A DNA stretch of 55,358 nt, from positions 17,433-72,790 of the forward strand of contig PLMA01000039.1 of assembly GCA_003141455.1 (NCBI GenBank), read 5' to 3'. Position 1 is the stretch's first letter. Each line of letters starts with the position of its first letter. This document shows, piece by piece, positions 22,190 to 55,358 of this stretch. The position numbers were made by a program, and so were the translations under genes. A model generated the notes under the pieces. The model searched no databases. It was given only the letters and a program-made list of their open reading frames with translations, and was not told the origin of the DNA. Source of the DNA: Chloroflexota bacterium (GTDB lineage: Bacteria; Chloroflexota; Limnocylindria; Limnocylindrales; CSP1-4).

Positions 22190-22275
22190 GTTGGGCGACC
22201 CGTCCGAGGAGCCGGCCTGGGTTATACTCCGCTCCAATTTAGCGCTCGCCCAGGAGGCCGAAGAGGTTGGCAGGC

Positions 22276-28200: not shown

Positions 28201-28422
28201 TCGTACACGGCTCTGGCCCTGGCAGTGGCCGGCATCGCCGGCTGGGCGGCATGGGAACGGCGCGTGGTCCTGGGTTACCGGCGAGCCGGGCGGCCTGGGA
28301 GTGGCTCCGCCGAAGCGGCCCACGTGGGCGAAGTGGGCGCCGGCGCGGCGGCCACGGACGAGTCTGGCGAAGCCGCGGCCGGCACCTCCCGCGAATCCTC
28401 AGGGCCGCCGCCGACCGACTGA
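22276..28422 (+). CDS. giant fusion: GT-C transferase + PMT-type mannosyltransferase with beta-propeller-like insert
   Basis: The 2,048-residue protein joins two membrane enzymes. Residues 1-620 form a GT87/DUF2029-like GT-C unit, with GAFQFWGNDIAAHGPIGFYD and IDYPPVYLLLL in the first outside loop. An acidic cytoplasmic linker (about 620-700) follows. From about 712 a PMT/GT39 protein O-mannosyltransferase begins: MHFDEVYHARTATEFL with the catalytic Asp-Glu pair (about 742) and WTHPHVAKY (about 770). Its first outside loop is interrupted at about 776-1215 by repeated beta segments (IFVATGGEVRVYDLESRALV, VIYVGTTQGRIWRIDANS) that read as a propeller. The PMT membrane core resumes near 1229 (MLFAQSRIAMNDTY) and continues through YNYHNDLRASHAASSPWWAWP (about 1640). 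GAGG lies 9 bases before the ATG. Confidence 0.85.
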   Translation: MSLRGDSPRGRESTETSAVTAIPAILVLLALGLALRFIIAYVLLPGSGFPNDLGAFQFWGNDIAAHGPIGFYDRTGFIDYPPVYLLLLSLVSLLTGGSIGEGVKILPILSDLALAGVVWVMVGELGGSGRRALIAAAIILFNPVTWFNSAIWGQADAVGAIFLLLGLRELQRDRRETASALAVLAVLTKMQLGILGFIVGFVVVRRSLVPRTGNADPVRILTSIGAGLVTVALVCLPFTGLDFLGLTHRLSSVAGLLTVAVGLVTALGVFALARRYLPIAQAQRTLVSALLGAGTAVVFAGMVFDSIVNHLLNTFGEYPYLTLNAYNPWALVTTGNGEAMDRGLSWVRDAPFTDPTTGITDPGFVIGPFSATVVTAALGLMVLLAAAAAVAWRRSRATDGETAEQATGSAPAAARKTTVPAGPRDWASEQRGLAGACAVAAAAIAFVVGGQLIAPLSALVVGDGFLLAILVGVAAWAAWRDDRLSLLVGLTILSIAFFVVPTRAHERYLFPFFGLGAILLSLSWRWSVAYVLLAAVNSVNLLAVLVEYKGIPAGDGALAGTLTDWGDGIVNARWFDGIIWLIALSAVVTGLALLWALLQMRGVSVDRLAAEAAAAGEAPSDLDVSAARETAASGVAMAATAAGEGPRSAPAISYELDGTDEPDDWTDDDYLDDPDRPDLVPAWLMSIWRRLYQPSSMPDRSAALNVEPRGRLDKLDLWVVVALAVAVLSLRVYRLDEPLQMHFDEVYHARTATEFLQDWRYNIPHDIYEWTHPHVAKYAIAGGIVLFSDDKVTSTGQLGVDVADVLIQPRAPASPLADASNPNDPRSNSDARFGDRIFVATGGEVRVYDLESRALVQTWSIPGASSLSTPGTTGVIYVGTTQGRIWRIDANSLDDVRLGLAKTAQPPTQLDVQTGLAITHLYAGTPPLILVADASGNVVSVDLTQSGGEVVGRAVVPGAADFADLGTGPAVLIRTSAPTSNSSSTPTPTSTPTPGGSSAEAEELASALGLDISKVEKALAATTAPGLDQGLDLGPLSSAQVTAVQDLVGQGKLAGLSVASSDPQVMVAYADGIGVLDGRHLVLTSTLQTDQPATSIAINPNQNQDSYLTAGDSLVLIKTDITGGTGSVTKDTNQPLRKMPGVVSKVVFDNATRIVQVLGRTPDGQGWTVYAIESNGNAVFSDARLPFQPVAIGLDSSPQLPDSNREQLLAFSPNGSVAAVDVGQFAFSWRIVGVLFGALMAVCLYLLARILFRRRSVGLLVALFSLVDGMLFAQSRIAMNDTYVGGFLLLAYLIFALIWLRVWKSRIAFWLGMPLLGVVLGLALASKWVGLYALASIGVLILIRSALGRVIVILGLAAGTGILGWKAIGEMITEPNTGNPGAVILLLLLGVAVVVGGSMWALSARTTPDKVLLGVGTTLLAALAFGAALVMSPGAIQNGAPNYSFFIIMLAVTMVAAAANAYHPIAWAREELVFAIATPIAIGLLAGILGAARSSVLLIEIGAAGLAAGIGAAVAFWVGGRMGFGPLAVPRSPDDPASYAEPPAPAPTGWLRLGSGWGLPALWMSLCLLVLPVVVYLVLYIPWAMPWQPQTADTGRLPAIACWHVAPDPNTPNATICTDAWPAGHTGQTLWDLTISMYNYHNDLRASHAASSPWWAWPMDLKPVWFESIGYANDQGSMIYDGGNPALWWMAIFAMAFLCWQAFKRRSLGLALIAVAFFWQWLSWARIDRASFQYHFYTALPFFLLGLAYFLAELWHGPSRRTWLLARVGAAAALLFPTAVWALKSPLCGLARVSTSDYFGNTACGTSTGDVRIDTRIFLIGLVLVAALAVLALLLLRLERRQARGEEDRAWALQLLVPVAIAGVLLLWLGKNAPQSLLFEAALPSDLIILVLLPILAVLAAIALNAQNPRRFVLGVCSVAVVAFIALYPNLSALPMPNAIIGVYNGLLPTWLYGFQFSVNLQQAVNIKLVDATSLSYTALALAVAGIAGWAAWERRVVLGYRRAGRPGSGSAEAAHVGEVGAGAAATDESGEAAAGTSRESSGPPPTD

Positions 28423-42548: not shown

Positions 42549-44009
42549 TTACCCGCCGAACACTCCGGCCGCGTTGGTGGCGGCGGCGGCGATCGCCGGG
42601 AAGAGCCCGAAGACCAGCGTGAGCACGCACGTGACCCCGAGGCCGACTCGGAAGAGCAGTCCGGGCGAACTCGGACGGAGCTCGTCGGCCGGCTCGCGCA
42701 TGTACATGTACACGACGACGCGCAGGTAGTAGAAGGCCGCGGCCGCCGCGTTGACCATGGCCAGGACAGCAAGGGCAGTCAGCCAGCCTCCGGCCTGGAC
42801 GGCAGCCAGGATGACATAGGCCTTGGCCCAAAAGCCCGCCAGTGGTGGGATCCCCGTGAGGGACAGCAGGAAGACGGCCATCAGCGCCCCTAGCCATGGA
42901 TCTCTCCGACCCAGGCCGGCGAACGTGGCGATCTGGCTCGACACGCCCGGCCGCCGCTGCAGTGCCGCGACCACGGCGAAGGCCCCCATGTTCATGAAGG
43001 TGTAGGCGGCGCCGTAGAAGAGGATCGCCGATAGGCCGCTGTGCTGGCCTCCCGCATAGGCCGCCAGGCCGACCAGGATGTAGCCGGTGTGGGCGATCGA
43101 GGAGTAGGCGAGCATCCGCTTGACGTTGTCCTGCGAGATCGCCACCAGGTTGCCGAGGGTCATTGTCAGGGCCGCCAGGACGATCACGACCGGGAGCCAA
43201 TCGGCCCGCAACGGCCCCAGGGCGCCGACGAAGAGCCGCAGGGCGATGGCGAAGGCGCCAACCTTGGGGCCGACCGAAAGATACGCGGTAATCGGCGTGG
43301 GCGAGCCCTGGTATGCGTCCGGAGTCCAGTAGTGGAACGGTACGGCGGCCATCTTGAAGGCCACGCCGGCCGACATGAAGGCCAGGCCCATGGCCAGACC
43401 GGGCTGGATCGAGCCTCCCGCCGCGACCTTCGCCAGCGCGGCCGTCACGCCGTCGACGCGGGTGGTTCCGGTGATGCCCCACACGTACGCCAGGCCGAAG
43501 AGCAGGATCGCGCTCGAGAAGGAGCCCAGCAGGAAGTACTTGATCGCGCCTTCGGTCGAATACGGGTCGCGCCTGGCGAAGCCGGCCAGCACGTAGCCCG
43601 GCAGGACCATGAGCTCGAGGGCGACGAAGAGCAGCACCAGGTCCGTGGAGCCGGCGATCAGCATCGCCCCCGTCACGGCGAAGACCAGGATGGCGGCGAA
43701 CTCGGCGATCGGCAGGCCTCGCGGCTCGATGTAGTCCACTCCGAAGAGGATCGTGAGTGCCGCTATGGCCACGAAGATCATGTCCAGGAAGACGGTCAGG
43801 TTGTCCAGCGAGTAGGCGCCGCCGAAGGCGCTGCCCGTGTGGCCAGCCTGGAGCAGGATCACCACGGCCACGATGCCCAGACCGCCAAGAGCGGTGGCGA
43901 TGATCGCCTGGCGCCGGTTCGGGAGAGCCAGATCCACGATCAGGATCGCCGCCGCCACCAGGACGGAGGCGACGACCGGGGCGATCGTTCCGAGGTCCGA
44001 CCAGCTCAT
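42549..44009 (-). CDS. nuoN: NADH-quinone oxidoreductase subunit N
   Basis: NuoN is one of three antiporter-like proton-pumping subunits of the complex I membrane arm. The 486 residues have about fourteen membrane helices, the discontinuous-helix region KMAAVPFHYWTPDAYQGSPTPITAYLSVGPKVGAFAI with its key Lys, and LELMVLPGYVLAGFAR carrying the conserved TM5 Glu. The ATG at 44009 is 13 bp after the nuoM stop and has GGAGA upstream. It is the last gene of the operon. Confidence 0.95.
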   Translation of the reverse strand: MSWSDLGTIAPVVASVLVAAAILIVDLALPNRRQAIIATALGGLGIVAVVILLQAGHTGSAFGGAYSLDNLTVFLDMIFVAIAALTILFGVDYIEPRGLPIAEFAAILVFAVTGAMLIAGSTDLVLLFVALELMVLPGYVLAGFARRDPYSTEGAIKYFLLGSFSSAILLFGLAYVWGITGTTRVDGVTAALAKVAAGGSIQPGLAMGLAFMSAGVAFKMAAVPFHYWTPDAYQGSPTPITAYLSVGPKVGAFAIALRLFVGALGPLRADWLPVVIVLAALTMTLGNLVAISQDNVKRMLAYSSIAHTGYILVGLAAYAGGQHSGLSAILFYGAAYTFMNMGAFAVVAALQRRPGVSSQIATFAGLGRRDPWLGALMAVFLLSLTGIPPLAGFWAKAYVILAAVQAGGWLTALAVLAMVNAAAAAFYYLRVVVYMYMREPADELRPSSPGLLFRVGLGVTCVLTLVFGLFPAIAAAATNAAGVFGG

Positions 44010-44022
44010 CTCGCGTCTCCCC

Positions 44023-45546
44023 TCATCCGCCGACCGCCACTCCGGCGGCAGCCAGGAAGCTCTGGGCTGGGCCGCGGAGGAGATCGAGCACAAGGCTCGG
44101 GAAGAGCCCGAGCACGACGATCCCGATTGCCAGCGGGGCGAGCGTCACCAGCTCGGTCCCGCTGATGTCCGTCAGGTGGCCGCCCAGGCCGCGCAGGAAG
44201 TCGGACAGCGCGCCGAAGGCGACTCGCTGGAACATCCACAACAGGTATGTGGCGGCCAGGACCATGACCACGATCGAGGCCAGGGCGATGACGGGGGCCA
44301 CGCCGAAGGACCCGACGAAGATCAGGAATTCACCTACGAAGCCCGACAGGCCCGGCAGCCCGGCGGAGGCCAGGATGAAGAAGCCGAAGACCGTCGACCA
44401 GATCGGCATCGCCGCCGCCAGGCCGCCCATCTTCGCGATCGTTCGATCGTGCGTGCGCTCATAGACCATGCCCACCAGCAGGAAGAGCCCGCCCGTGATC
44501 AGGCCGTGGTTGATCATCTGCAGGACGGCGCCCTGGAGCGCGGTGGCGCTGAAGACGAAGATGCCCAGGGTCACGAAACCCATGTGGCTGACCGAGCTGT
44601 ATGCGACCAGTCGCTTGAGATCGGGCTGGACGATCGAGACGATCGCGCCGTAGACGATCGCGACCACGCTCAGGACGATGATCGGCCAGGCGAAGGTGTG
44701 GGCCGCGAAGGGATACAGCGGCACGGCGAAGCGGATCAGGCCGTATGCCCCGAGCTTGAGGAGCACCCCGGCCAGGATCACCGAGCCGGCCGTTGGCGCC
44801 TCCGTGTGGGCGTCCGGCAGCCAGGTGTGGAACGGGAACATCGGGACCTTGATGGCGAACGCCAGGAAGAGGGCCAGGAAGGCCAGGATCTGGAGGTCGT
44901 TGGCGAAGTGGCCGCCGGCTGCCCAGGCCTGGAGCTGCCCGTAGTCGAAGGCGCCGGCCCACGACCCGCCGTGGCCGGCCTGGAACGCGAAGGCCGTAGC
45001 CAGGATCGCAACCAGCATCAGCAGCGAGCCGACGAGCGTGTACAGCACGAACTTCATCGTGGCGTAGATGCGATTGGAACCGCCCCAGATGCCGATGATC
45101 AGGTACATCGGGACAAGGACGATCTCCCAGAAGATGTAGAAGAGGAAGAAGTCCAGGGCGATGAAGACGCCGATCATGCCGACCTCGAGGACGAGGAAGG
45201 AGATCATGTAGCCCTTCACCCGTTCCTTGATCGGCCCGAAGCTGGCCAGGATGCTGATCCACGTCAGGGTCGTCGTCAGCACCACCATCAGGACGCTGAG
45301 GCCGTCCACGCCGAGCTTGTACTGGATGCCGAAGGCCGGAATCCAGTCGACGGTCTCGTTGAATTGGAAGCCGCCGGGGCCGAAGGCGAAGGCGACGAGC
45401 AGGAGGAGCGAGAGCCCCCAGGCCACGAGCGCGAAGCCCAGCGCAGTGCGGCGGACGATCTCTTCGTGACGGGAGGGAATGACCGTCAGGGCCAGCACGC
45501 CCACGAGTGGAGTGAAGGTGATCAGGCTCAGGATCGGCAGGGTCAT
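44023..45546 (-). CDS. nuoM: NADH-quinone oxidoreductase subunit M
   Basis: The 507-residue antiporter-like subunit shows LDFFLFYIFWEIVLVPMYLIIGIWGG, whose Glu pairs with the pumping Lys. KVPMFPFHTWLPDAHTEAPTAGSVILAGVLLKLGAYGLIRF and LVAYSSVSHMGFVTLGIF are standard NuoM blocks. It begins 12 bp after the nuoL stop. Length and motifs are ordinary, so this part of the proton-pumping arm appears fully functional. Confidence 0.97.
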   Translation of the reverse strand: MTLPILSLITFTPLVGVLALTVIPSRHEEIVRRTALGFALVAWGLSLLLLVAFAFGPGGFQFNETVDWIPAFGIQYKLGVDGLSVLMVVLTTTLTWISILASFGPIKERVKGYMISFLVLEVGMIGVFIALDFFLFYIFWEIVLVPMYLIIGIWGGSNRIYATMKFVLYTLVGSLLMLVAILATAFAFQAGHGGSWAGAFDYGQLQAWAAGGHFANDLQILAFLALFLAFAIKVPMFPFHTWLPDAHTEAPTAGSVILAGVLLKLGAYGLIRFAVPLYPFAAHTFAWPIIVLSVVAIVYGAIVSIVQPDLKRLVAYSSVSHMGFVTLGIFVFSATALQGAVLQMINHGLITGGLFLLVGMVYERTHDRTIAKMGGLAAAMPIWSTVFGFFILASAGLPGLSGFVGEFLIFVGSFGVAPVIALASIVVMVLAATYLLWMFQRVAFGALSDFLRGLGGHLTDISGTELVTLAPLAIGIVVLGLFPSLVLDLLRGPAQSFLAAAGVAVGG

Positions 45547-45558
45547 CGTCTCGTCCTC

Positions 45559-47520
45559 CTACCGAACCGCGATCAGGAAGTAGCCGATGGCCATCGCAAT
45601 CAGCCCGATGGCGATGCCGAGGGCGTAGTTCTGGACGTGCCCCGTCTGGACGCGGCGCAGCCCCAGGCCGGCTTGTGTCGTGACCGTTCCGATGCCGTTG
45701 ACCGTGCCGTCGATCACTACCCTATCGAACCACCACACGGCGCCGGCGAGGCGGCCGCCCCAGACCACGAAGAGCAGGTTGTTGAGGTCGTCGAACCACC
45801 ACTTGGCCGATGAGCCGCGGTACAGGAAGTCCAGGCCGCGGCGGGCACTGACTTCGCGCACTCGATCGGGCCGGGGCTCCGCGTGCAGACCGATCGCCGG
45901 CATGTCGACGCCGAAGAGCCGCCACGCGGCCACGATCGCAGTCACTACCAGGAGGGTGGTCACGATGGCCAGCCCGCCGTCTATGCCGAGGAAACTGTAG
46001 GCGGCCTCCGTTCGTCCGCCGGCGGCGATCGTTGCCTCGAAGACGGGCGCAAGCCACTGGTGGAGCAGCCCCGACTCCGGCGGGTAGCCGATCAGCAGGC
46101 CCAGGAAGACGGCCGGAAGAGCAAGCAGGATGAGGGGCCGCGTCATCGTCAGGGGCGACTCGTGGATGTGTTGCTCCACCTCGGGATCCACGTGGCTCGG
46201 GCCCCAGAAGGTCATGCCCATGAGGCGGAACATGTAGAAGGCAGTCATGCCGGCAACGACGAAGCCGATCGCCCAGACCCACAGGAAGCCGCTCTTGAAG
46301 GCTCCGCCCAGGATCTCGTCCTTGCTGAAGAACCCGGCCAGCGGTGGCACGCCGGCGATGGCCACCGAGCCGATCAGCATCGTCACGTAGGTGATCGGGA
46401 TCTTCCGGGCCAGGCCGCCCATCTTGCGCATGTCCTGCTCGTCCCCGACGGCATGGATGACCGAGCCGGAGCCCAGGAAGAGCAATCCCTTGAAGAAGCC
46501 GTGGCTCATGAGGTGGAAGATCGCCGCCGTCCACGCCCCCACGCCCAGAGACGCGAACATGTAGCCGAGCTGGGAGAGCGTGGAATAGGCCAGGACGCGT
46601 TTGATGTCCGTCTGGGTGAAGGCGATCGAGGCGGCCAGTATCGCGGTGAAGATGCCGATCGCGGCCACGACGACCATCACGCCCGGCGCGGCGCCGAAGA
46701 TGGGATTGCATCGGGCCACGAGGTAGACGCCGGCGTTGACCATGGTGGCGGCGTGGATGAGGGCGGAGACCGGCGTGGGGCCTTCCATGGCGTCCGGCAG
46801 CCAGACGTGGAGCGGGAACTGAGCGCTCTTGCCGACGGCTCCGCAGAAGAGCAGCAGGGCGACGACGGCGACCCAGGTCGACGAGAGCCCGCCGCCTTCG
46901 ACCAGCTTGAAGACGGCCTGCATGTTGAGTGTGCCCAGCTGCGTCCAGATGGCCATGATCGCGAGGGCGAAGCCCATGTCGCCGACGCGGTTGACCAGGA
47001 AGGCCTTCTTGGCGGCCTCGGCCGCGGACCGGCGCGGATACCAGAAGCCGATCAGCAGATAGCTGCACAGGCCCACCAGCTCCCAGCCGGCGAAGACGAG
47101 CAAGAAGTTGTCGGCCAGGACCAGGAGCAGCATCGAGAACATGAACAGGTTCAGGTAGGCGAAGAAGCGCCACTTGCCCGGGTCGTGGGCCATGTAGCCG
47201 ATCGAGTAGATGTGGACCAGCATGCCGATGGTCGTGACCACGATCAGCAGGCACCCGGTCAGAGCATCCACGTAGAAGCCCATCTCGGCCTTGAAGCCCA
47301 GGGCAGGGATCCAGTTCCAGAGCGTGATTCCGGCGCCGTCCCCGATGCCGAAGCCGTGCGCCAGGGCGGCGAAGGCCACGACCATCGCCACCAGCCATGA
47401 GGCCACGACAGCCCAGACGGCGATCTGGTGCGACTCACGACCCATCTGACGGCCCAGCAGCCCGGTGACGACGAATCCGGCCAGCGGCAGAAGCGGAATG
47501 AGCGGGATGAGGTAGGTCAT
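45559..47520 (-). CDS. nuoL: NADH-quinone oxidoreductase subunit L
   Basis: The 653-residue distal pump subunit shows KWRFFAYLNLFMFSMLLLVLADNFLLVFAGWELVGLCSYLLIGFW, KSAQFPLHVWLPDAMEGPTPVSALIHAATMVNAGVYLVAR and VLAYSTLSQLGYMFASLG. A long C-terminal part with a final membrane helix matches the lateral helix HL that lies along the membrane arm. It is slightly longer than the 613 residues of E. coli NuoL. It starts 7 bp after the nuoK stop. Confidence 0.97.
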   Translation of the reverse strand: MTYLIPLIPLLPLAGFVVTGLLGRQMGRESHQIAVWAVVASWLVAMVVAFAALAHGFGIGDGAGITLWNWIPALGFKAEMGFYVDALTGCLLIVVTTIGMLVHIYSIGYMAHDPGKWRFFAYLNLFMFSMLLLVLADNFLLVFAGWELVGLCSYLLIGFWYPRRSAAEAAKKAFLVNRVGDMGFALAIMAIWTQLGTLNMQAVFKLVEGGGLSSTWVAVVALLLFCGAVGKSAQFPLHVWLPDAMEGPTPVSALIHAATMVNAGVYLVARCNPIFGAAPGVMVVVAAIGIFTAILAASIAFTQTDIKRVLAYSTLSQLGYMFASLGVGAWTAAIFHLMSHGFFKGLLFLGSGSVIHAVGDEQDMRKMGGLARKIPITYVTMLIGSVAIAGVPPLAGFFSKDEILGGAFKSGFLWVWAIGFVVAGMTAFYMFRLMGMTFWGPSHVDPEVEQHIHESPLTMTRPLILLALPAVFLGLLIGYPPESGLLHQWLAPVFEATIAAGGRTEAAYSFLGIDGGLAIVTTLLVVTAIVAAWRLFGVDMPAIGLHAEPRPDRVREVSARRGLDFLYRGSSAKWWFDDLNNLLFVVWGGRLAGAVWWFDRVVIDGTVNGIGTVTTQAGLGLRRVQTGHVQNYALGIAIGLIAMAIGYFLIAVR

Positions 47521-47527
47521 TGGTCGC

Positions 47528-47839
47528 TCACTGGCTCATCGAGTCGTACTCGTCCACAAGAGGCGTCTTGCGGTTGCGGTAGATGGCCATGACGAGGGCC
47601 AGCCCAATAGTCGCTTCGGCCGCCGCCACGGCAATGACCAGCAGGGCGATGACCGCGGCGTGCGTATTGAGCGCCGGGACGAAGGCGCCGAAGGCGACCA
47701 CGGTCAGGTTGACGGCGTTGATCATCAGCTCGATCGACATGAGCATGCTGATGGCGTTCCGGCGGGCCAGGAAGCCGAAGGTCCCTATCGCAAACAACAG
47801 GCCCGAAAGGACCAGATAGGAGTCGAGCGAGCCGCTCAT
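47528..47839 (-). CDS. nuoK: NADH-quinone oxidoreductase subunit K
   Basis: The 103-residue, three-helix subunit has the conserved ARRNAISMLMSIELMINAVNLTVVAF, with the membrane Glu needed for proton transfer, and AAAEATIGLALVMAIYRNRKT with the second one. The ATG overlaps the nuoJ stop (ATGA), as in many complex I operons. Confidence 0.96.
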   Translation of the reverse strand: MSGSLDSYLVLSGLLFAIGTFGFLARRNAISMLMSIELMINAVNLTVVAFGAFVPALNTHAAVIALLVIAVAAAEATIGLALVMAIYRNRKTPLVDEYDSMSQ

Positions 47840-48381
47840 CGGTTCTCCCCGTCCCCGCTGATCTCGCGCCGGGCCAGGTAGACCCCACCGATGACAGCGG
47901 CGGTCAGCAGCACGCTCACCACCTCAAACGGCAGCACGTAGTCGCGGAACAGCAGGTGGGCAACGTCCGTTGTCGACGTCCACAGCCGCTGACCGGCAGA
48001 CGGCCACGTCGTGGCCAGGACGGCCACCGTGATCACGACTGCGATGACTGCCGCGGCCACGGCAGCCGCAAGGGTCTGGGTCTGGAAGACCAGCCGCGCG
48101 GGGGCGTTCTTGGTCTGGGTCAGCATTATCGCGAACAGGACCAGCACGCTGATGGCGCCGATGTATACCAGCACCTGCGTGGCCGCCACGAGCGGATTGC
48201 CCAGAAGGACGTAGATCCCCGCCAGCGACGCGAACGAGACGATCAGGGCGAGGCCGCAACGGATGATGTCGCGCAGGGTTACTACCAGGAGCGCCGACAC
48301 GAGGAGAGTGGCGGCCAGGGCGACGAAGAGCACGTCATCCCAGCGGATCCCGATCAACGGGATCGAGTCGCCTATCGGCAT
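47836..48381 (-). CDS. nuoJ: NADH-quinone oxidoreductase subunit J
   Basis: The 181-residue, five-helix protein has the helix-3 signature ATQVLVYIGAISVLVLFAIMLTQ, home of the pi-bulge that gates coupling. Upstream the frame is open to 48558, but the ATG at 48381 with GGAGGG before it gives the usual N-terminus. It lies 76 bp after the flavoprotein fusion gene, the largest gap inside the operon. Confidence 0.95.
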   Translation of the reverse strand: MPIGDSIPLIGIRWDDVLFVALAATLLVSALLVVTLRDIIRCGLALIVSFASLAGIYVLLGNPLVAATQVLVYIGAISVLVLFAIMLTQTKNAPARLVFQTQTLAAAVAAAVIAVVITVAVLATTWPSAGQRLWTSTTDVAHLLFRDYVLPFEVVSVLLTAAVIGGVYLARREISGDGENR

Positions 48382-48457
48382 GCCTCGCTTCCCTCCTCTG
48401 CAAGTCCCGGCTGGCCGGGACTCCGGGCCGGCGATCCGGTCCAGAATGGCTTGACGG

Positions 48458-51295
48458 TCACTGTCGTTCGGTCCCACTGCGATCGCCGGGTGCACCGGCC
48501 AGGGACGGAGGAAGTGCCGGCAGCTTCTCCGCCGGATCTTCCAGGCGACCCTCGGCAAGGGCGTGCGCCACCCAGTCGCGCTCGCGACGAATGTAGGTCA
48601 CTTCGGTCTCGCGATCGATCGCCGCGAGCCCGATCAGGTCGATCTCCGGGTCGCCTCGGTCTGTGTGGGCAAGCTCGTTGTCCTGCCCGCCACGCAGGGC
48701 ATCGTACGGGCAGGCGTCGACGCAGATGCCGCACAGGATGCAGCGGCTCTCGTCCACGTCGTACTTCTCCAGAACGCGCGGCTTGGGCATGAGAGCGCCG
48801 GTGGGGCACGTCTCGGCGCAGCGGCCGCAGGAGACGCACGGCGTGTCGTTGAGGCTCATGTCCAGCGGCGTCGTCACCAGCGTGTCGAAGCCGATGCGCA
48901 TGAAGTCGTAGCAGGCCGCACCCACCACGTCGGCGCAGACCGCGGCGCAGCGCCCGCAGTCGATGCAGCGGGACGGCTCGCGCAGGATGAAGGCGTGGCT
49001 GTCGTCGCGGATGTAGTCGTGGTTGGCGCCGGTGAACCGGTTCTCCGTGACGCTTCGGAAGCCTGCGCCCTGGTCGTGGCCCGGCTCCAGGGTCTGGAGC
49101 GTGGTGCCGTACTCGATACCCAACCGCCGCAGGTCGCAGTTGCCCAACGCCTCGCAGGTGCACTGCAGGCAGCGGGTGGACTCGGCCATCACCTCGGCCT
49201 GCGTGTAGGGGATCTCGTACTCGACGTAGCTCTTGATCCGCTCCTTGGCCGGCATGGACTGGAGGCGGTGGCGCGGTTCTTTGGGCTCGTCGGTGTAGGG
49301 GACGATCGAGAGGAACTGCGGCTCGACCTCCGCCAGGGTCTGGCGGGTCCGTAGCTCCGTCAGGTCGATTCCCTTCAGGAACGCGTCCGTGGCGTAGGCG
49401 CAGCGCCGGCCTTCGGCCACGGCCTGGACCACGGTCGCGGCGCCGATGCGCACGTCGCCCGTGCCGAAGACGCCGGGCCGGCCGGTCTCGAACGTGACAG
49501 CGTCCGCCTTGAGCCGGTACTTGGCCGCTTCCACGCCATGGTTGCCGGGGCCGATCCAGGAGAGGTCCGGGCCCTGGCCGATTGCCAGCAGGACCCGGTC
49601 GCATTCGACCACGAACTCCGTGCCGGGCGCCGGCTCGGGGCGGCGGCGGCCCGATGCGTCCGGCTCGCCGGGCTGCATCCGGATGAACTCGACCCCGGTC
49701 ACCTTGCCGTTCCCGTCGACCAGGACACGGGTGGGCCCGGCCTGGAAGATCATCCGGGCCCCCTCTTCGATGGCCTCGTGAGCCTCGGTCGCGGCCGGCA
49801 TGTCCTTCATGTCGCGGCGGTAGACGAGGGTCACTTCTTTGGCGCCCTGGCGAAGCGAGGTCCGCGTGCAGTCCATCGCCGTGAACCCACCGCCCACGAC
49901 GACGACTCGGCTGTGCTTATGGCCCGGGTAGGGCAGGCCGAGAGCGGCGATCTTGAGGTATTCCAGGCCGTCGATCGCGCCGTCGGCCTTCTCGTTGGGG
50001 ACGTTGAGCTTGTTCGTGTCGTAGCAGCCGGTGGCGACGATCGTGGCGTCGAAGCCCTGGTCGCGCAAGTCGTCCAGGCTGAAGTCGGGGCCCAGGGCCT
50101 TGTTGCATTCCAGGCGGGCGCCGAGGCGCCAGACGGCCTCGTATTCGGGGTCCAGGACGTCGGCCTTGGGCAGGCGATACTCCGGGATGCCGTAGCGCAG
50201 CAAGCCGCCGGGCAGCTCGTCCTTCTCGAAGACGGTCACGTCGTGGCCGGACAGGAGCAGGTAGTAGGCCGCCGACATCCCGGCCGGGCCGGAGCCGATG
50301 ATCGCCACGCGCTTGCCTGTCTTGGGCTCAGCTTCGAACGGCAGCGGCGGCTCGATGCCTTCCTGCTGCGCCTTCAGGACCATGTCCCCGGCGTAGCGGT
50401 GGCTGTCGCGGATGGCAATCGCCTCGTCCACCTCGTCACGCCGGCAGTGTTCCTCGCACGGCGCGGGGCAGACGCGGCCCAGGATCGAGGGGAACGGGAT
50501 AGTGCGTTTGAAGATGCGCGCCGACTCGCGGAACTGGCCCTCGGCGTTGGACTTGAGGAAGCCCGGGATGTCGATGTGGCTCGGGCACTTGTTCTGGCAG
50601 GGCGGCAGGCAGTAGGCGTTATGGTCGCTGAAGATCAGCTCGAGGTTCGTCCGCCTCAGGCGGCGGAGCTGCTCGGTCTGGGTTTGGACGACCATGCCCG
50701 ACTCGGCGGTCCGGGAGCACGAGATCGGCGGATGCTCCTCGCCCTCCACCTCCACGACGCACATCCGGCACGCTCCAAAGCCCGGCAGCTTGGGCTCGTA
50801 GCAGAGCGTGGGGATCTCGATGCCGTTGGCGCGGCAGACCTCCAGAATCGTCTGTCCTTCGAGGCCCTCGACGATCCGGCCGTCGACCTCCAGGCGGAAG
50901 GCGTGCGTCGAAAGTGGGCGCTGCGGATCCTGGGCCGTGATCAAGCGCTCCGCCGGCGAGTCATCGAGCTGGATGACGGTGTCGAACGGGGTCTTCGCGT
51001 CAGGTCGACTGTCGGCGCGGCCGGCCCGGCGGTTCCAGACCTTCTTCTGATTCGCCGGCGGTCGCAGCCGACCCAACGGAAACACCGCATTGGGCAGGAT
51101 CCCCTCCAGGGCGGCCGACGCGGGCGCGGTCGGGTTGGCCGACAGGGCGACCGCAGCCGGAGCCGCGGACTCCGTCGCGACCGAAGCCGCGGAAGCCGCT
51201 GGCTCGGTCTTCGCGGGTTTGCGCGACCGAGACGGCTTGGCCGGTCCCGTCGACCGGGGAGAGGCGGGGCTGGGGCGGACGGTCGGTTCTCGCAT
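48458..51295 (-). CDS. 2Fe-2S / GltD-like flavoprotein / 4Fe-4S fusion in the nuoG position
   Basis: The 945-residue protein has an Ala/Pro-rich N-terminus (1-105), a NuoG/FdhA-type 2Fe-2S domain (Cys165, 176, 179, 193), the GltD-type 4Fe-4S entry (Cys229, 233, 237 and VCPAPCEEHC), an FAD site IIGSGPAGMSAAYYL (about 332-346), a pyridine-nucleotide site VVVVGGGFTAMD with YRRD (about 465-495) favouring NADPH, and three CxxCxxCxxxC ferredoxin motifs near 776, 819 and 850. It stands where nuoG (and the second half of nuoI) should be, 8 bp after nuoF. No molybdopterin-like domain exists. It is probably an electron-input subunit of this complex I. The ATG at 51295 is preferred; the open frame to 51571 overlaps nuoF. 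Confidence 0.88.
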   Translation of the reverse strand: MREPTVRPSPASPRSTGPAKPSRSRKPAKTEPAASAASVATESAAPAAVALSANPTAPASAALEGILPNAVFPLGRLRPPANQKKVWNRRAGRADSRPDAKTPFDTVIQLDDSPAERLITAQDPQRPLSTHAFRLEVDGRIVEGLEGQTILEVCRANGIEIPTLCYEPKLPGFGACRMCVVEVEGEEHPPISCSRTAESGMVVQTQTEQLRRLRRTNLELIFSDHNAYCLPPCQNKCPSHIDIPGFLKSNAEGQFRESARIFKRTIPFPSILGRVCPAPCEEHCRRDEVDEAIAIRDSHRYAGDMVLKAQQEGIEPPLPFEAEPKTGKRVAIIGSGPAGMSAAYYLLLSGHDVTVFEKDELPGGLLRYGIPEYRLPKADVLDPEYEAVWRLGARLECNKALGPDFSLDDLRDQGFDATIVATGCYDTNKLNVPNEKADGAIDGLEYLKIAALGLPYPGHKHSRVVVVGGGFTAMDCTRTSLRQGAKEVTLVYRRDMKDMPAATEAHEAIEEGARMIFQAGPTRVLVDGNGKVTGVEFIRMQPGEPDASGRRRPEPAPGTEFVVECDRVLLAIGQGPDLSWIGPGNHGVEAAKYRLKADAVTFETGRPGVFGTGDVRIGAATVVQAVAEGRRCAYATDAFLKGIDLTELRTRQTLAEVEPQFLSIVPYTDEPKEPRHRLQSMPAKERIKSYVEYEIPYTQAEVMAESTRCLQCTCEALGNCDLRRLGIEYGTTLQTLEPGHDQGAGFRSVTENRFTGANHDYIRDDSHAFILREPSRCIDCGRCAAVCADVVGAACYDFMRIGFDTLVTTPLDMSLNDTPCVSCGRCAETCPTGALMPKPRVLEKYDVDESRCILCGICVDACPYDALRGGQDNELAHTDRGDPEIDLIGLAAIDRETEVTYIRRERDWVAHALAEGRLEDPAEKLPALPPSLAGAPGDRSGTERQ

Positions 51296-51303
51296 GGGAC
51301 GCC

Positions 51304-52641
51304 TCAGGAAACGGCCCCGGCTCGGGCTTCTGCCTTTGGCTGGCAGATCCCGGCGGGGCAGGTGTTGCGGACGATGTGGGCGTCGAGCTCGTCGCGGAAG
51401 TACCGGACGACGCTCTGCAGGGCCAGGGTGGAGCGACGCTCGTGGTCGCATAGGGCGCTTTCGACTATGTCGGATGAGAGGTCGGAGATTCGCGTCAGCT
51501 CGTCCCCGCGGGGCTGGCCCTCGCAGATACGGGCGCCGCTCTCCGCCAGCCGGCGCAGTCCGATCCGGCACGGGATCGTCTTGCCGCAGGCCTCGTCGGC
51601 GCAGAAGCGGGTCAGGACCGCGGCGAGATCCACCACGCAGCTGTGCTGGTCCAGAGCCACGATCGAGCCCGAACCGATGTACGCACCAGCCTCCTCCAGG
51701 GAGGCCTGGTCGTAGCTGACGCTCAGGCCGTCGGCCGGCAGGATGCCCCCGGACGGGCCGCCGACGAGCAGCCCCTTGAGGCGACGATGCGCAGGAATGC
51801 CGCCGGCAATGTCCACGATCTCGCTAATCGTGACGCCGAGCGGGACCTCGGCGATGCCCGGCTTGGCGACGGCACCGGAGATCTGGACCAGGATCGTGCC
51901 GCGGCTCGCGGTGGCGCTGATCTCGGCGAAGCGGGCGGCCCCGCCGGTCAGGATGGACGGCACGGCCGCGAAGGTTTGCGGGCCGTGGATCAGGGTCGGC
52001 TTGCCGAAGAGGCCGCGGGTCGTGGGGTAGGGCGGCTGCTGCTCGGGCTGGCCGCGCTTGCCCTCCAGACCCTTCAGCAGGACTGTCTCCTCGCCCAGCA
52101 TGTAGGCGGCCTGAAGAGGCCTGACCGAGACGTTGATCTGCGTGCCGGATCCCAGGACGTCGGGACCGAGGAAACCGGCGGTTTCGGCCGCGGCCACGGC
52201 GGACTCCAGGATCCGGATCGCGTCCGCCGCCTCGACCCGGACGGCCACGATCACCTCGCTCGCGCCGACGGCGAAAGCGGCGGTGGCGGCCCCCTCGAGC
52301 ACCGCGTAGGGGTTCCTCTCGAGCAGGATCCGGTCCGTCAACACGGCCTGGTCCGCCTGGTAGGCGTTGACGACCACGTAGCGGCGATCGGCCTCGGCTT
52401 CGGCGCAGGCGCGCCACTTCTCGCCGGTGGGCACGCCCGCACCGCCCCGGCCCCGGAGACCGGATTCACCGATGGCCTGCATCACTCCTTCTGCCCCGAG
52501 TTCCAGGACGGCGGTCCGCAGGCCGGCAAAGGCGCCAGCTTCCACGGCCGCGTCCAGATCCAAAGGATCGGCCGCGGGCGGCTCCGGGAGCAGGAAACGC
52601 GGCCACCGGGTCGGAGTAGCGAGGATCTTCGCTTCCGTCAT
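51304..52641 (-). CDS. nuoF: NADH-quinone oxidoreductase subunit F, altered cluster motif
   Basis: NuoF normally binds NADH, FMN and cluster N3. The 445 residues have the FMN/NADH loop GLRGRGGAGVPTGEKW, VVNAYQADQ (normally VxNxDExEP) and AAYMLGEETVLLKGLEGKRGQP. The N3 motif reads Cys352-Gly-Lys-Thr355-Ile-Pro-Cys358 with Cys398 later: the second of four ligands is Thr. Cys373 could substitute. The C-terminus ends in HIVRNTCPAGICQ, like the linker to a ferredoxin domain in HydB-type subunits, but stops there. The ATG overlaps the previous stop (ATGA). Confidence 0.88.
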   Translation of the reverse strand: MTEAKILATPTRWPRFLLPEPPAADPLDLDAAVEAGAFAGLRTAVLELGAEGVMQAIGESGLRGRGGAGVPTGEKWRACAEAEADRRYVVVNAYQADQAVLTDRILLERNPYAVLEGAATAAFAVGASEVIVAVRVEAADAIRILESAVAAAETAGFLGPDVLGSGTQINVSVRPLQAAYMLGEETVLLKGLEGKRGQPEQQPPYPTTRGLFGKPTLIHGPQTFAAVPSILTGGAARFAEISATASRGTILVQISGAVAKPGIAEVPLGVTISEIVDIAGGIPAHRRLKGLLVGGPSGGILPADGLSVSYDQASLEEAGAYIGSGSIVALDQHSCVVDLAAVLTRFCADEACGKTIPCRIGLRRLAESGARICEGQPRGDELTRISDLSSDIVESALCDHERRSTLALQSVVRYFRDELDAHIVRNTCPAGICQPKAEARAGAVS

Positions 52642-53453
52642 GCCACGGGCCCTCCGGCCAGGGTGCGGCCCAGGGCCGCCGCGGCGGTCGCGGTGAGGCG
52701 CGGCTGCGGTGTGCCGTCCAGCGTGACGAGCGGCGATGCCGCGCCGGGGATGTGGGCGGGGAGCTGCTCGAGAGCCACTCCGCCCGCCGGCGGCTGGCCG
52801 ATCTCCGTGCCCAGCGCCCCTCCCAGGCTCCTGGCGATTCGGCTCGCTCCCGCCATCAGGCAGGCCGTGCAGCGGCAGACCGCCACGGTATGGTCGGGCT
52901 TCTCGAAGCGCAGGTGGCTGTAGTAGGTCGCCCTGCCGTAGATGAGCGCGTACGGGGCGCCGGAAACCTGGCTGACCTTCTTGAGCGCAGCAACCGGCAG
53001 GTATCCGTAGACGTCCTGGATGGCCGCGAGGATCGCCAGCATCTGCGCCTGATCCCAGTCGTATTTCTCGAGGATTGCATCGATTGGGGCCGTGTCGATG
53101 GCATCGAAGTGGGTGTAGGCCGGGTCCGGCACCGGCCGGCCCGACTTTCGCAGGGCGGACTTCTCGCGCCGCTCGGCGTACTGCTCGGCCGCGCCCCAGT
53201 GAACGTGGAAGCGGCCTATGGTGTCGAAGCCCCCCATGTCGATGCACTCAACCGGACAGGCCATGGCGCATTGGAAGCACGTCTCGCACTTGACGTTGCC
53301 CAGCTCGTCGTAGAGCAGCTGCAGCCGGCCGCGGAAGCGGACAGCGATGTCGGGCGCCGTCTCCGGGTACTGGATGGTGGCCTTGGGCGCGAAGAAGCGG
53401 CGCATCGTCAGCGCCATCCCCTTGGCGATGCCCAGGCCCGGAACGAAGCTCAT
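52638..53453 (-). CDS. NuoI-NuoE fusion with degenerate clusters
   Basis: In this 271-residue protein, residues 1-70 match NuoI: GIAKGMALTMRRFFAPKATIQYPE, RFRGRLQLL and one 4Fe-4S motif (Cys56, 59, 62, 66). The second NuoI motif is absent. Residues about 115-265 match NuoE: ILEKYDWDQAQMLAILAAIQDVYGYLPVAAL, then VAVCRCTACLMAGASRIARSL with the first ligand pair (Cys193, Cys198). Where NuoE has its second pair (ECLGAC-like) this protein reads LEQLPAHIPGAASPLVTLDG, with Ala233 and Gly237. Cluster N1a therefore probably cannot form normally. The ATG overlaps the nuoH stop (ATGA). Confidence 0.85.
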   Translation of the reverse strand: MSFVPGLGIAKGMALTMRRFFAPKATIQYPETAPDIAVRFRGRLQLLYDELGNVKCETCFQCAMACPVECIDMGGFDTIGRFHVHWGAAEQYAERREKSALRKSGRPVPDPAYTHFDAIDTAPIDAILEKYDWDQAQMLAILAAIQDVYGYLPVAALKKVSQVSGAPYALIYGRATYYSHLRFEKPDHTVAVCRCTACLMAGASRIARSLGGALGTEIGQPPAGGVALEQLPAHIPGAASPLVTLDGTPQPRLTATAAAALGRTLAGGPVA

Positions 53454-54811
53454 CGCGCGCCCCCCGGAGTGGTGATGATGACCGCCGCGGCCGTCACGAA
53501 GAGGTTCAGGAGCGAGGCGGGAAGCAGCCACTTCCAGGCGAATCCCATCAGCTGGTCGACTCGGACCCGCGGCAGCGTCGCCCTCATCCAGACGAACGTG
53601 ATCACGAAGAAGTAGGTCTTGGCCATGAACCAAACGAGGCCGGCCACCCAATCGAAGGCGATGAAGCCGGCCGTGCCGACGAGACCGGCAACGGCCACCA
53701 GCAAGAACAGGAATCCCAGGCCCATGGCGTCCCACAGGCCCCACTCCCGGCCACCGATGAGCCTGGCCGCGATGGCGAAGAGCACCGTACCGATCAGCAC
53801 GACGTTGGCCACGATCAGCACCCAACCCAGGATGCCGATGCTCAACGGGTGGAACCAGTTCAGGTTGTATGCCCACGGCCAGTTGAACGGAGCCGTCCAA
53901 CCGCCGAAGAAGATCGTGGCGGTGAGGGCCGAGACGATGAAGACGTTGACGTACTCCGCGAAGAAGAAGAACCCGAACCGCATTCCGGAGTACTCCGTGG
54001 CGAAGCCGGCCACGATCTCGGAGTCGGCCTCGGTCATGTCGAAGGGGGTCCTGTTGGCTTCGGCGGTTGCGGCGATGAAGAAGATGAGCGCCGCGAGAGG
54101 CTGCTTGAAGACGAACCAATCGAGCACCGAGCCGGACTGCGCCAGCACGATGCGGTTCATGCTCATCGAGCCGGCCAGGATGATCACACCGACGACCGAG
54201 AGCGTCAGCGGGATCTCGTAGCTGATGATCTGCGCCGCCGAGCGCAGGCCGCCCAGGAGCGAGTACTTGTTGAAGCTCGACCAGCCGGCCATCAGCAGCC
54301 CGACGACCGTCAGCCCGCCCATCGAGAAGAAGAAGAGCAGGCCGATGTTGAAGTCCTGGCCGAAGAGCCCGGGCGCGAACGGAATGACCAGCAGGCTCAT
54401 CACGCTGGCCATGTAGGTCACCACCGGAGCCAGGGTGAAGACGGTGACGTCGGTGCCGGTCGGGGCGAAGTCCTCCTTGGACAGAACCTTGAGACCGTGG
54501 ATGACGCTCATCGCCGCGCCCCACGGACCGATGCGGTTGGGCCCCACCCGCAGGTTCATGCGGGCGATGACCTTCAGCTCGAGGTAGATCAGGACGAAGG
54601 CCGTCGGGACGGTCAGCAGCAGGATCGCCACGGCCGCCACGACGAAGCGGACCAGCGGCATGTTGGCCCCCAGGAAGTCGAGGAACGGCGGCCCGAGCAG
54701 CACGATCGCCAAGACCGTGACCACCGCCGCGACGATCGCCGCCGGGATGAAGATGGCGAGCAGACGGGCCCGCGACGACATGCCGTCCCAGGTTCGAACC
54801 GCGAAGCTCAT
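53450..54811 (-). CDS. nuoH: NADH-quinone oxidoreductase subunit H, with insert
   Basis: NuoH forms the quinone chamber joining the arms. The 453 residues have the family blocks ELKVIARMNLRVGPNRIGPWG, FAPTGTDVTVF, AEANRTPFDMTEADSEIVAGFATEYSGM (acidic quinone-site loop) and MRATLPRVRVDQLMGFAWKWLLP. Usual NuoH is about 325-365 residues. The extra length is mainly a stretch of about 80 residues after FFGGW (NLNWFHPLSIGILGWVLIV, then FLFLLVAVAGLVGTAGFIAF) with two added hydrophobic segments. It starts 10 bp after the nuoD stop. Confidence 0.95.
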   Translation of the reverse strand: MSFAVRTWDGMSSRARLLAIFIPAAIVAAVVTVLAIVLLGPPFLDFLGANMPLVRFVVAAVAILLLTVPTAFVLIYLELKVIARMNLRVGPNRIGPWGAAMSVIHGLKVLSKEDFAPTGTDVTVFTLAPVVTYMASVMSLLVIPFAPGLFGQDFNIGLLFFFSMGGLTVVGLLMAGWSSFNKYSLLGGLRSAAQIISYEIPLTLSVVGVIILAGSMSMNRIVLAQSGSVLDWFVFKQPLAALIFFIAATAEANRTPFDMTEADSEIVAGFATEYSGMRFGFFFFAEYVNVFIVSALTATIFFGGWTAPFNWPWAYNLNWFHPLSIGILGWVLIVANVVLIGTVLFAIAARLIGGREWGLWDAMGLGFLFLLVAVAGLVGTAGFIAFDWVAGLVWFMAKTYFFVITFVWMRATLPRVRVDQLMGFAWKWLLPASLLNLFVTAAAVIITTPGGAR

Positions 54812-54821
54812 CGGGCCGTTC

Positions 54822-55358
54822 TCACTTGTCGATCCCGCCCATGACCGGATCGAGTGAAGCGACGACCGCCATCGTGTCCGCCAGCAGGTGGCCGGGCAGG
54901 AGCGTCGTCACTGTCTCGAGGTTGACGAAGCTCGGGTCATGGATGCGGAAGCGGAAGGGCTGGTCCGAGCCGTCGCTGATGGCGTACACGCCGAGCATCC
55001 CGCGCGGCCCCTCGACGGCTCCCCAAGCGCGGCCGGGTCGCGGCCGCAGGAGTCGCGGCAGCTTGGCCATCACCGGGCCGTCGGGCATGTTGTGGAGGCA
55101 CTGGTCGATGATCTTGAGCGACTCCCGGATCTCGTCCACCCGGATCAGATAGCGGGCCAGCGAGTCGCCTTCCTCGCGGGTCGGGACGTTGAATTCGAGC
55201 TCGGGGTAGATGCTGTAGGGGTGCGCTCGCCGTACGTCGAACGGAACGCCGGAGGCGCGCAGGTTCCCGCCCGTGACCCCATAACTGAGGGCCGTGGCGC
55301 GATCCAGGTTGCCCACTCCGCGCATTCGGCGGACGAAGATCTCGTTCTCGTTGAGCAG
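54822..55358 (-). CDS. nuoD: NADH-quinone oxidoreductase subunit D, C-terminal part
   Basis: The gene runs off the right edge; 178 codons before the stop are present. The visible part begins LLNENEIFVRRMRGVGNLDR, typical of NuoD, and continues with ALSYGVTGGNLRASGVPFDVRR and PYSIYPELEF. It ends MAVVASLDPVMGGIDK, the usual NuoD end. NuoD forms most of the quinone site beside cluster N2. nuoA, nuoB and nuoC are expected just outside the window. Confidence 0.95.
   Translation of the reverse strand: MLNENEIFVRRMRGVGNLDRATALSYGVTGGNLRASGVPFDVRRAHPYSIYPELEFNVPTREEGDSLARYLIRVDEIRESLKIIDQCLHNMPDGPVMAKLPRLLRPRPGRAWGAVEGPRGMLGVYAISDGSDQPFRFRIHDPSFVNLETVTTLLPGHLLADTMAVVASLDPVMGGIDK

Follow-up and report, generated by a model that had tools for sequence, protein, structure and literature searches.

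A StnC-like flavoprotein at the NuoG position and a NuoI split over two proteins in a divergent complex I of Chloroflexota

Complex I is usually taken as an enzyme that oxidises reduced nicotinamide adenine dinucleotide (NADH) and that has a fixed core of 14 parts. What, then, is to be made of a complex I operon in which the gene at the position of nuoG encodes a different flavoprotein, and where would electrons enter such a complex? The question is raised by a gene on the minus strand of a 55,358-nucleotide stretch of Chloroflexota contig PLMA01000039.1 (the window: the whole stretch of DNA that was analysed). The first-pass annotation had read this gene, lying between nuoF and nuoJ, as a fusion of a 2Fe-2S domain, a GltD-like domain and ferredoxin motifs, a description confirmed by the open reading frame (ORF) and by Pfam. 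The reading favoured here, to which we assign a probability of roughly 0.55, is a divergent, non-bifurcating complex I in which the path would run from the phosphorylated dinucleotide (NADPH) through flavin adenine dinucleotide (FAD), iron-sulphur (Fe-S) clusters, a NuoI split over two proteins and cluster N2 to quinone.

The replacement gene starts with an ATG at 51295 and lies on one strand with its flanking genes nuoF (51304-52641) and nuoJ (about 47836-48384). Its product is organised as follows.

48458..51295, minus strand: NuoG replacement of 945 residues, comprising a 2Fe-2S domain, a GltD-like FAD-NADPH domain, three four-cysteine motifs and the second half of NuoI (ORF and profile matches)
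50675..50899, minus strand: [2Fe-2S] domain, residues 133-207, with Cys165, 176, 179 and 193 invariant (Pfam and alignment)
49373..50611, minus strand: Fer4_20 and GltD/NfnB-like FAD and NADPH domain, about residues 229-641, with His299 at the place of StnC Lys170 (Pfam, PDB matches)
48803..48967, minus strand: C-terminal Fe-S motifs 1 and 2, residues 777-831, which align with motifs of the Nfn/Stn chains (Pfam, PDB matches, alignment)
48650..48778, minus strand: NuoI second half, residues 840-882, equivalent to positions 71-113 of the 121-position NuoI model (profile match)

Pfam assigns Fer2_4 to residues 133-207, the two-cluster domain Fer4_20 to 229-309, Pyr_redox_2 to 329-629 and Fer4-type matches to stretches within 813-868; a match to NADH-G_4Fe-4S_3 remains below its cut-off (23.6 versus 27 bits, 17 of 40 positions). 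The best matches in a PDB sequence search are the Nfn-ABC/StnC chains (1e-157 to 1e-134), which again came out on top in a fold search with the AlphaFold model (34 to 38% identity over 620 to 739 columns). The best NCBIfam match, covering residues 134-786, is the PRK12814 family (NF009454), to which SfrA presumably belongs; the score is 534 bits against a cut-off of 916, and the model, 657 positions long, does not include the NuoI half.

Among 47 aligned homologues, the glycine motifs for FAD and NADPH, Arg374 (the counterpart of StnC Arg239), His299 and the Fe-S cluster cysteines are all invariant. An alignment of 16 rows from the class likewise has invariant [2Fe-2S] (N1b-like) cysteines and an invariant YRR in the nucleotide site, three Fe-S cysteines being only nearly invariant there because one row is masked. 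Altogether, 133 distinct replacement-type ORFs were obtained, of which 121 have both end motifs and were counted as complete, the 12 without one end motif being dropped. All 121 possess the three-motif C-terminus, and 120 have His at the place of StnC Lys170 (the remaining one is masked), as opposed to Lys in 9bov, 8oh5 and 9n5u. The conserved FAD/NADPH site and the use of NADPH by the closest relatives support the NADPH-type input suggested at first pass, with NADPH as the probable main donor. An assembly error was considered as the source of the gene and ruled out as unlikely, because homologues in the genus, family and order keep the same gene order, which recurs across many genomes; identity to them is 80 to 91% in the genus (98% for one short piece) and, at the level of family and order, about 67 to 79%.

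The closest known systems are the Stn (Nfn-Bfu) transhydrogenases, whose StnC/NfnA subunits (8oh5, 9bov, 9n5u) share with the replacement protein the combination of a [2Fe-2S] domain, a two-cluster GltD-like FAD/NADPH domain and NuoG/HydA-type 4Fe-4S motifs, and which likewise have NuoF and NuoE homologues as partners. According to the available part of the StnC study, Lys170 lies at the cluster beside FAD (C7) and is strictly conserved, NfnB having Glu there; the FAD of StnC is itself non-bifurcating, electrons follow a linear path from NADPH/FAD to the flavin mononucleotide (FMN) of StnB, and the C1/C2 cluster branch is described as an evolutionary remnant (PMC10482914). The replacement protein differs from StnC in its His for Lys170 and from that of S. 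ovata in lacking the FdhF-like C-terminal domain, which is partial in some relatives, and in carrying the NuoI half instead. Since this half sits at the end corresponding to the C1/C2 branch, the branch would here be wired to N2 and quinone. Unlike in Stn, moreover, the gene lies within a nuo operon and its partners in the window lack the bifurcation clusters.

In the source genome, the operon order is nuoA-B-C-D-H-I'E-F-replacement gene-J-K-L-M-N, where nuoA to nuoC and the remaining part of nuoD, which contains a gap of Ns, fall outside the window. The subunits of the membrane arm and quinone module (NuoA-D, H, J-N) are present, NuoC being assigned by NCBIfam at 100 bits (cut-off 122); there is a single NuoH, and the NuoB cysteines and NuoD His/Tyr, which we take to be the N2 and quinone sites, are readable in the sequence. 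In these features, and in having NuoF, the complex resembles the canonical 14-subunit form, from which it differs by having no NuoG, no intact two-motif NuoI, a NuoE without the four-cysteine pattern and an altered NuoF.

Linkage was counted over places, so that the same genome may recur, and families are labelled f1 to f5, f1 being the window's own. For the f1/f2/f4 type, the gene immediately upstream of the replacement gene is nuoF in 74/74 places where the sequence reaches far enough, and nuoJ is found no more than 2.3 kb downstream in 35/36 (it is further off in L257); two f4 loci (L038, 10252-11540; L040, 10794-12730) have other ORFs in the interval up to nuoJ. For this type, the survey found neither a canonical nuoG by nuoE/nuoF nor homologues mostly without nuo genes. 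Together with the lack of a canonical NuoG in the source genome, this linkage upholds the earlier proposal that the protein stands in for NuoG as part of the complex. Actinomycetota have nuoF linkage in 5/5 and nuoJ linkage in 5/5, and in the f3/f5/Ktedonobacteria type nuoF is directly upstream in 58/72 and nuoB lies within 6 kb upstream in 45/55.

A profile search of the source genome (92% complete) detected no canonical NuoG. Its sole PF10588 match adjoins the only other NuoF homologue, located beside an FeFe-hydrogenase subunit on contig C50, and is best matched in NCBIfam by FeFe_hydrog_A6 (656.7 bits, cut-off 765; partly masked). This second NuoF/NuoG-like pair was considered as part of a canonical complex I and rejected, as it belongs to the FeFe hydrogenase; the locus (L036, 5057-8865) encodes a HydC-HydB-HydA set, probably an FeFe hydrogenase of group A6, with hydA partly masked. 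In the class, NuoG exceeds the TIGR01973 cut-off in 2 of 151 genomes (G112, G118), and three more (G091, G096, G114) have full-length matches to the NuoG model of 212 to 228 bits, under the cut-off of 470. G118 also holds the replacement set (L084); of this set, a short contig of G112 (L086) bears at least nuoF and the replacement gene.

The replacement protein is also tied to the complex by the fate of NuoI, which is divided between it and a second protein of the operon.

52638..53453, minus strand: nuoI'E, the first half of NuoI fused to a NuoE-like domain, 271 residues (Pfam, NuoI model)
53235..53420, minus strand: first half of NuoI (residues 12-73), containing one CxxCxxCxxxCP motif and equivalent to NuoI model positions 1-61 of 121 (profile match)
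52674..53084, minus strand: part resembling NuoE (about residues 124-260) in which the second cysteine pair of the [2Fe-2S] site is absent (Pfam, motif count)

The NuoI model (121 positions) divides into 1-61 on NuoI'E (E 3.4e-13) and 71-113 on the C-terminus of the replacement protein (E 1.2e-10). On the canonical NuoI of G118 (L083), the two window proteins match side by side, NuoI'E with residues 11-80 at 34% and the replacement protein with 820-880 at 42%. A NuoI over the cut-off occurs in 131 of 201 sampled genomes of the phylum and in 0 of 24 class members (best E 2e-11 to 1e-15), one of which (G026) may have no complex I at all. Distinct NuoI'E proteins were counted from fetched loci with the replacement gene within 3 kb; removal of identical inner stretches left 81, whereas joining rows with an identical stretch turns the 102 rows into 60 groups. 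All 81 contain exactly one CxxCxxCxxxCP, none has the NuoE four-cysteine pattern, and CxCxxC is found in 20. In several genera of the window's family (L046-L049, L242, L253), the NuoE-like part ends after its helical half, with loss of the thioredoxin-like domain.

In canonical NuoI, N6a is held by three cysteines of motif 1 and one of motif 2, and N6b by the reverse. Because nuoI is cut between its motifs, N6a and N6b would each draw their ligands from two proteins. As motifs 1 and 2 of the replacement protein align with the Nfn/Stn pair, motif 3 is left without an obvious partner on the same chain, which fits such cross-chain clusters. The split NuoI is an unusual architectural solution; no description of it, or of a StnC-type subunit with a NuoI half, was found in the open-access literature among the matches listed.

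It could be argued that the flavoprotein is an operon neighbour forming a separate soluble NADPH oxidoreductase with NuoF, outside complex I. In line with this, two Ktedonobacteria-type genomes examined (G218, G239; loci L174, L175) also hold a complete canonical operon, and 14 of the 72 Ktedonobacteria/f3-type copies have no nuoF directly upstream, although 7 of these are tandem copies. However, the replacement protein carries the very NuoI half that is absent from nuoI'E, and, since most or all of the sampled class genomes have neither NuoG nor a full NuoI, its removal would leave the complex without a wire. We give this explanation hardly any credence.

The second part of the question concerns the NADH module, of which NuoE has lost its cluster pattern and NuoF is altered as well.

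51304..52641, minus strand: nuoF, 445 residues, with an altered FMN/NADH pocket and the N3 ligand Cys356 replaced by Thr (Pfam, alignment)

NuoF residues are given in Nqo1 numbering, which was checked, and their ligand roles are presumed to be those in Nqo1. The comparison comprises 75 variant rows, which reduce to 65 groups when rows that share the same 60-residue stretch are merged, some genes having been fetched twice. Asp94 is lost in 75/75 rows (65/65 groups), compared with its presence in 13/15 canonical and 7/7 Hyd/Stn-type rows; Glu95 is kept in 18/75 and Cys182 in 0/75, and Glu97 is changed to Asp in 75/75 as well as in 5/7 Hyd/Stn rows. Sixteen of the 63 near-invariant columns are each retained in fewer than half of the variants. 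At the N3 ligand position Cys356, 50/52 f1/f2 rows have Thr or Ser (the cysteine is lost in 40/42 groups) and 3/3 f4 rows have Ala. To judge from these residues, the lineage of the window has a weakened route to NuoF.

These losses bear on bifurcation, which the first-pass annotation had also entertained. A complex I that bifurcates or confurcates electrons in the manner of Bfu/Stn would couple NADPH, NADH and ferredoxin, and the resemblance of the replacement subunit to StnC and NfnA of bifurcating enzymes speaks for it, as does a Nuo-Bfu complex predicted in Geobacter and others, in which the NuoEFG module is exchanged for a bifurcating BfuABC core. In the available text of that study, the defining features are clusters B2-B5 of BfuB besides N3 (B1), and a [2Fe-2S] cluster in BfuC/NuoE (PMC9304861). 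Like Nuo-Bfu, the present complex has its NuoEFG module exchanged for a related one. Unlike it, the window NuoF (445 residues) has only the Pfam domains Complex1_51K, SLBB, SLBB_2 and NADH_4Fe-4S, with the N3 motif as its sole cluster motif and no B2-B5, and none of the 81 NuoI'E proteins has the [2Fe-2S] four-cysteine pattern; the change of StnC Lys170 to His and the non-bifurcating nature of the StnC FAD argue in the same direction. Bifurcation is therefore disfavoured, and a non-bifurcating NADPH:quinone complex I favoured, because the required clusters are missing; we regard a bifurcating enzyme as highly improbable. The first-pass annotation thus stands in part, and neither the split NuoI nor the altered NuoF and NuoE were among its points. 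Conversely, an NADPH domain and a split NuoI occur here, and no NADPH domain is mentioned for Nuo-Bfu in the accessible portion of its description (PMC9304861). The predicted Nuo-Bfu complex had already shown that the NADH module of complex I is exchangeable; the StnC-type subunit with a NuoI half and the split NuoI would be the new part.

A further possibility is that the actual donor is a protein carrier (reduced ferredoxin or another) that delivers its electrons to the C-terminal Fe-S motifs, the FAD domain then being a side port. The three C-terminal four-cysteine motifs would suit this role, and a precedent exists in the ferredoxin-dependent NDH-1 of cyanobacteria (PMC9304861, available part). 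Nevertheless, the FAD/NADPH site is conserved, and NuoF has no extra ferredoxin domain of the StnB kind, which makes a protein carrier an improbable main donor.

We infer, then, that the replacement protein would be the main subunit of the peripheral arm in a divergent complex I that reduces quinone. Its GltD-like domain would oxidise NADPH at the FAD, and electrons would pass over the pair of Fer4_20 clusters and the 4Fe-4S motifs of the C-terminus to a NuoI ferredoxin domain built from two chains, the first half from NuoI'E and the second from the replacement C-terminus. From there they would reach N2 in NuoB and quinone, driving an ordinary membrane pump. NuoF and the NuoE remnant would constitute an altered module, probably minor or structural and without bifurcation. 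As to direction, the complex may act as a pump or may run backwards, reducing NADP+ to make NADPH.

Several observations weigh against this reading. The glycine-rich loop and Lys75 of NuoF are retained in nearly all rows, Gly183 and Glu184 in 75/75 and Glu185 in 74/75, and FMN/NADH may therefore still bind to the variant NuoF. Cys356 is kept in 4/4 f3, 16/16 Ktedonobacteria-type and 5/5 Actinomycetota rows; the five Actinomycetota rows also keep Glu95, but not Asp94, and one has Asp at Cys359. In a subunit control with up to 18 variant and 12 canonical loci, near-invariant columns are lost at 28% in NuoF, 28% in NuoB, 30% in the NuoD N-part, 9% in NuoL and 1% in NuoM; as NuoF resembles NuoB and NuoD in this respect, the case rests on the identity of the lost NuoF residues and not on their count. 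In 13/121 replacement proteins, those listed all being of Ktedonobacteria type, the NADPH motif (YRR) lacks its two Arg residues. In the f3 form, motifs 2 and 3 jointly match NuoI 44-111, making same-chain pairing possible. The AlphaFold models (mean pLDDT, the predicted local distance difference test, 63.8 and 69.7) are confident in the GltD-like and NuoE-like parts and not at the Fe-S ends; residues 732-906 of the replacement-protein model fall below 50, which is too low to support the proposed pairing of the half ferredoxins. Finally, nuoJ is downstream of the replacement gene in 0/67 places of the f3/f5/Ktedonobacteria type.

The retained NuoF residues, including three N3 cysteines, would allow dual input, with NuoF oxidising NADH via FMN, the GltD-like domain adding NADPH or exchanging with NADP+, and both pools feeding quinone. 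The Cys356 of the f3, Ktedonobacteria-type and Actinomycetota rows and the invariant [2Fe-2S] cysteines of the replacement protein point the same way, and PntB, present in 19/19 class genomes tested (phylum control group not included), would make the pools linkable anyway. Set against this are the losses of Asp94 and Cys182, of the N3 ligand in the window's lineage and of the NuoE four-cysteine pattern, and we consider dual input unlikely, if worth keeping in view.

How widely does the arrangement occur? Of 400 genomes sampled from the phylum, 97 match the replacement protein at 1e-150. They comprise 51 of the 55 class members in the sample and 46 genomes from outside the class, of which G280 and G482 represent a different, Stn/Hyd-like type whose fetched stretch contains no membrane nuo genes. 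When named genomes were scanned, 327 relatives were confirmed; among the 78 loci retained from them as top-scoring against one query, the carriers include Thermogemmatispora, Thermosporothrix, Ktedonobacter, Dictyobacter and five metagenome-assembled genomes titled as Actinobacteria groups; the Ktedonobacteria include isolates. In these Actinomycetota (L238, L239, L243, L244, L252), I', the E remnant and F form one ORF of 599 to 607 residues at 5/5 loci. The f3 genomes have the complex in two clusters, [A]-C-H-J-K-L-M-N and B-D-I'E-F-replacement, with NuoC in L080/L081 assigned from reading ORFs, and in the f5 genome the contig end that was fetched carries nuoF and the replacement gene alone. 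A tree of the replacement proteins, made by a quick method and drawn at midpoint with long branches meeting at the outgroup, contains three clades: Actinomycetota; f1/f2/f4; and f3/f5 with Ktedonobacteria. Whether these sets make up a separate class of complex I in Chloroflexota and Actinomycetota, with entry moved from NADH/FMN of NuoF to NADPH/FAD at the NuoG position and with N6a and N6b each formed by two proteins through a cut nuoI, is a tentative proposal to which we give somewhat less than even odds.

Within the Ktedonobacteria type, Dictyobacter aurantiacus (L217, L128) has three tandem copies of the replacement gene, the second and third nearly identical. Separately, 14 copies of this type (4 solo, 5 tandem, 5 operon; L215, L217-L222, L224-L229) lack YRR and read YYRT or similar, which may signify another nucleotide preference.

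The remaining nuo genes of the window are listed below.

54822..55358, minus strand: nuoD, 3' part (ORF)
53450..54811, minus strand: nuoH (ORF)
about 47836..48384, minus strand: nuoJ (ORF, gene order)
47528..47839, minus strand: nuoK (ORF, gene order)
45559..47520, minus strand: nuoL (ORF, gene order)
44023..45546, minus strand: nuoM (ORF, gene order)
42549..44015, minus strand: nuoN (ORF, gene order)

Elsewhere in the window, a 2051-residue ORF (22267-28422, plus strand) has two protein mannosyltransferase-like matches, and a TMEM260-like mannosyltransferase is encoded nearby (18547-20451, minus strand).

For the biology of these organisms, the finding means that a proton pump may run on NADPH instead of NADH in several bacterial groups. 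A lineage-wide NADPH-type input would alter the calculation of energy yield for these bacteria, which according to record titles come from soil, groundwater and lake samples, and would offer a natural experiment on the extent to which the input module is exchangeable with the proton pump unchanged. Cultured Ktedonobacteria carry a form of the set, which makes the proposal testable.

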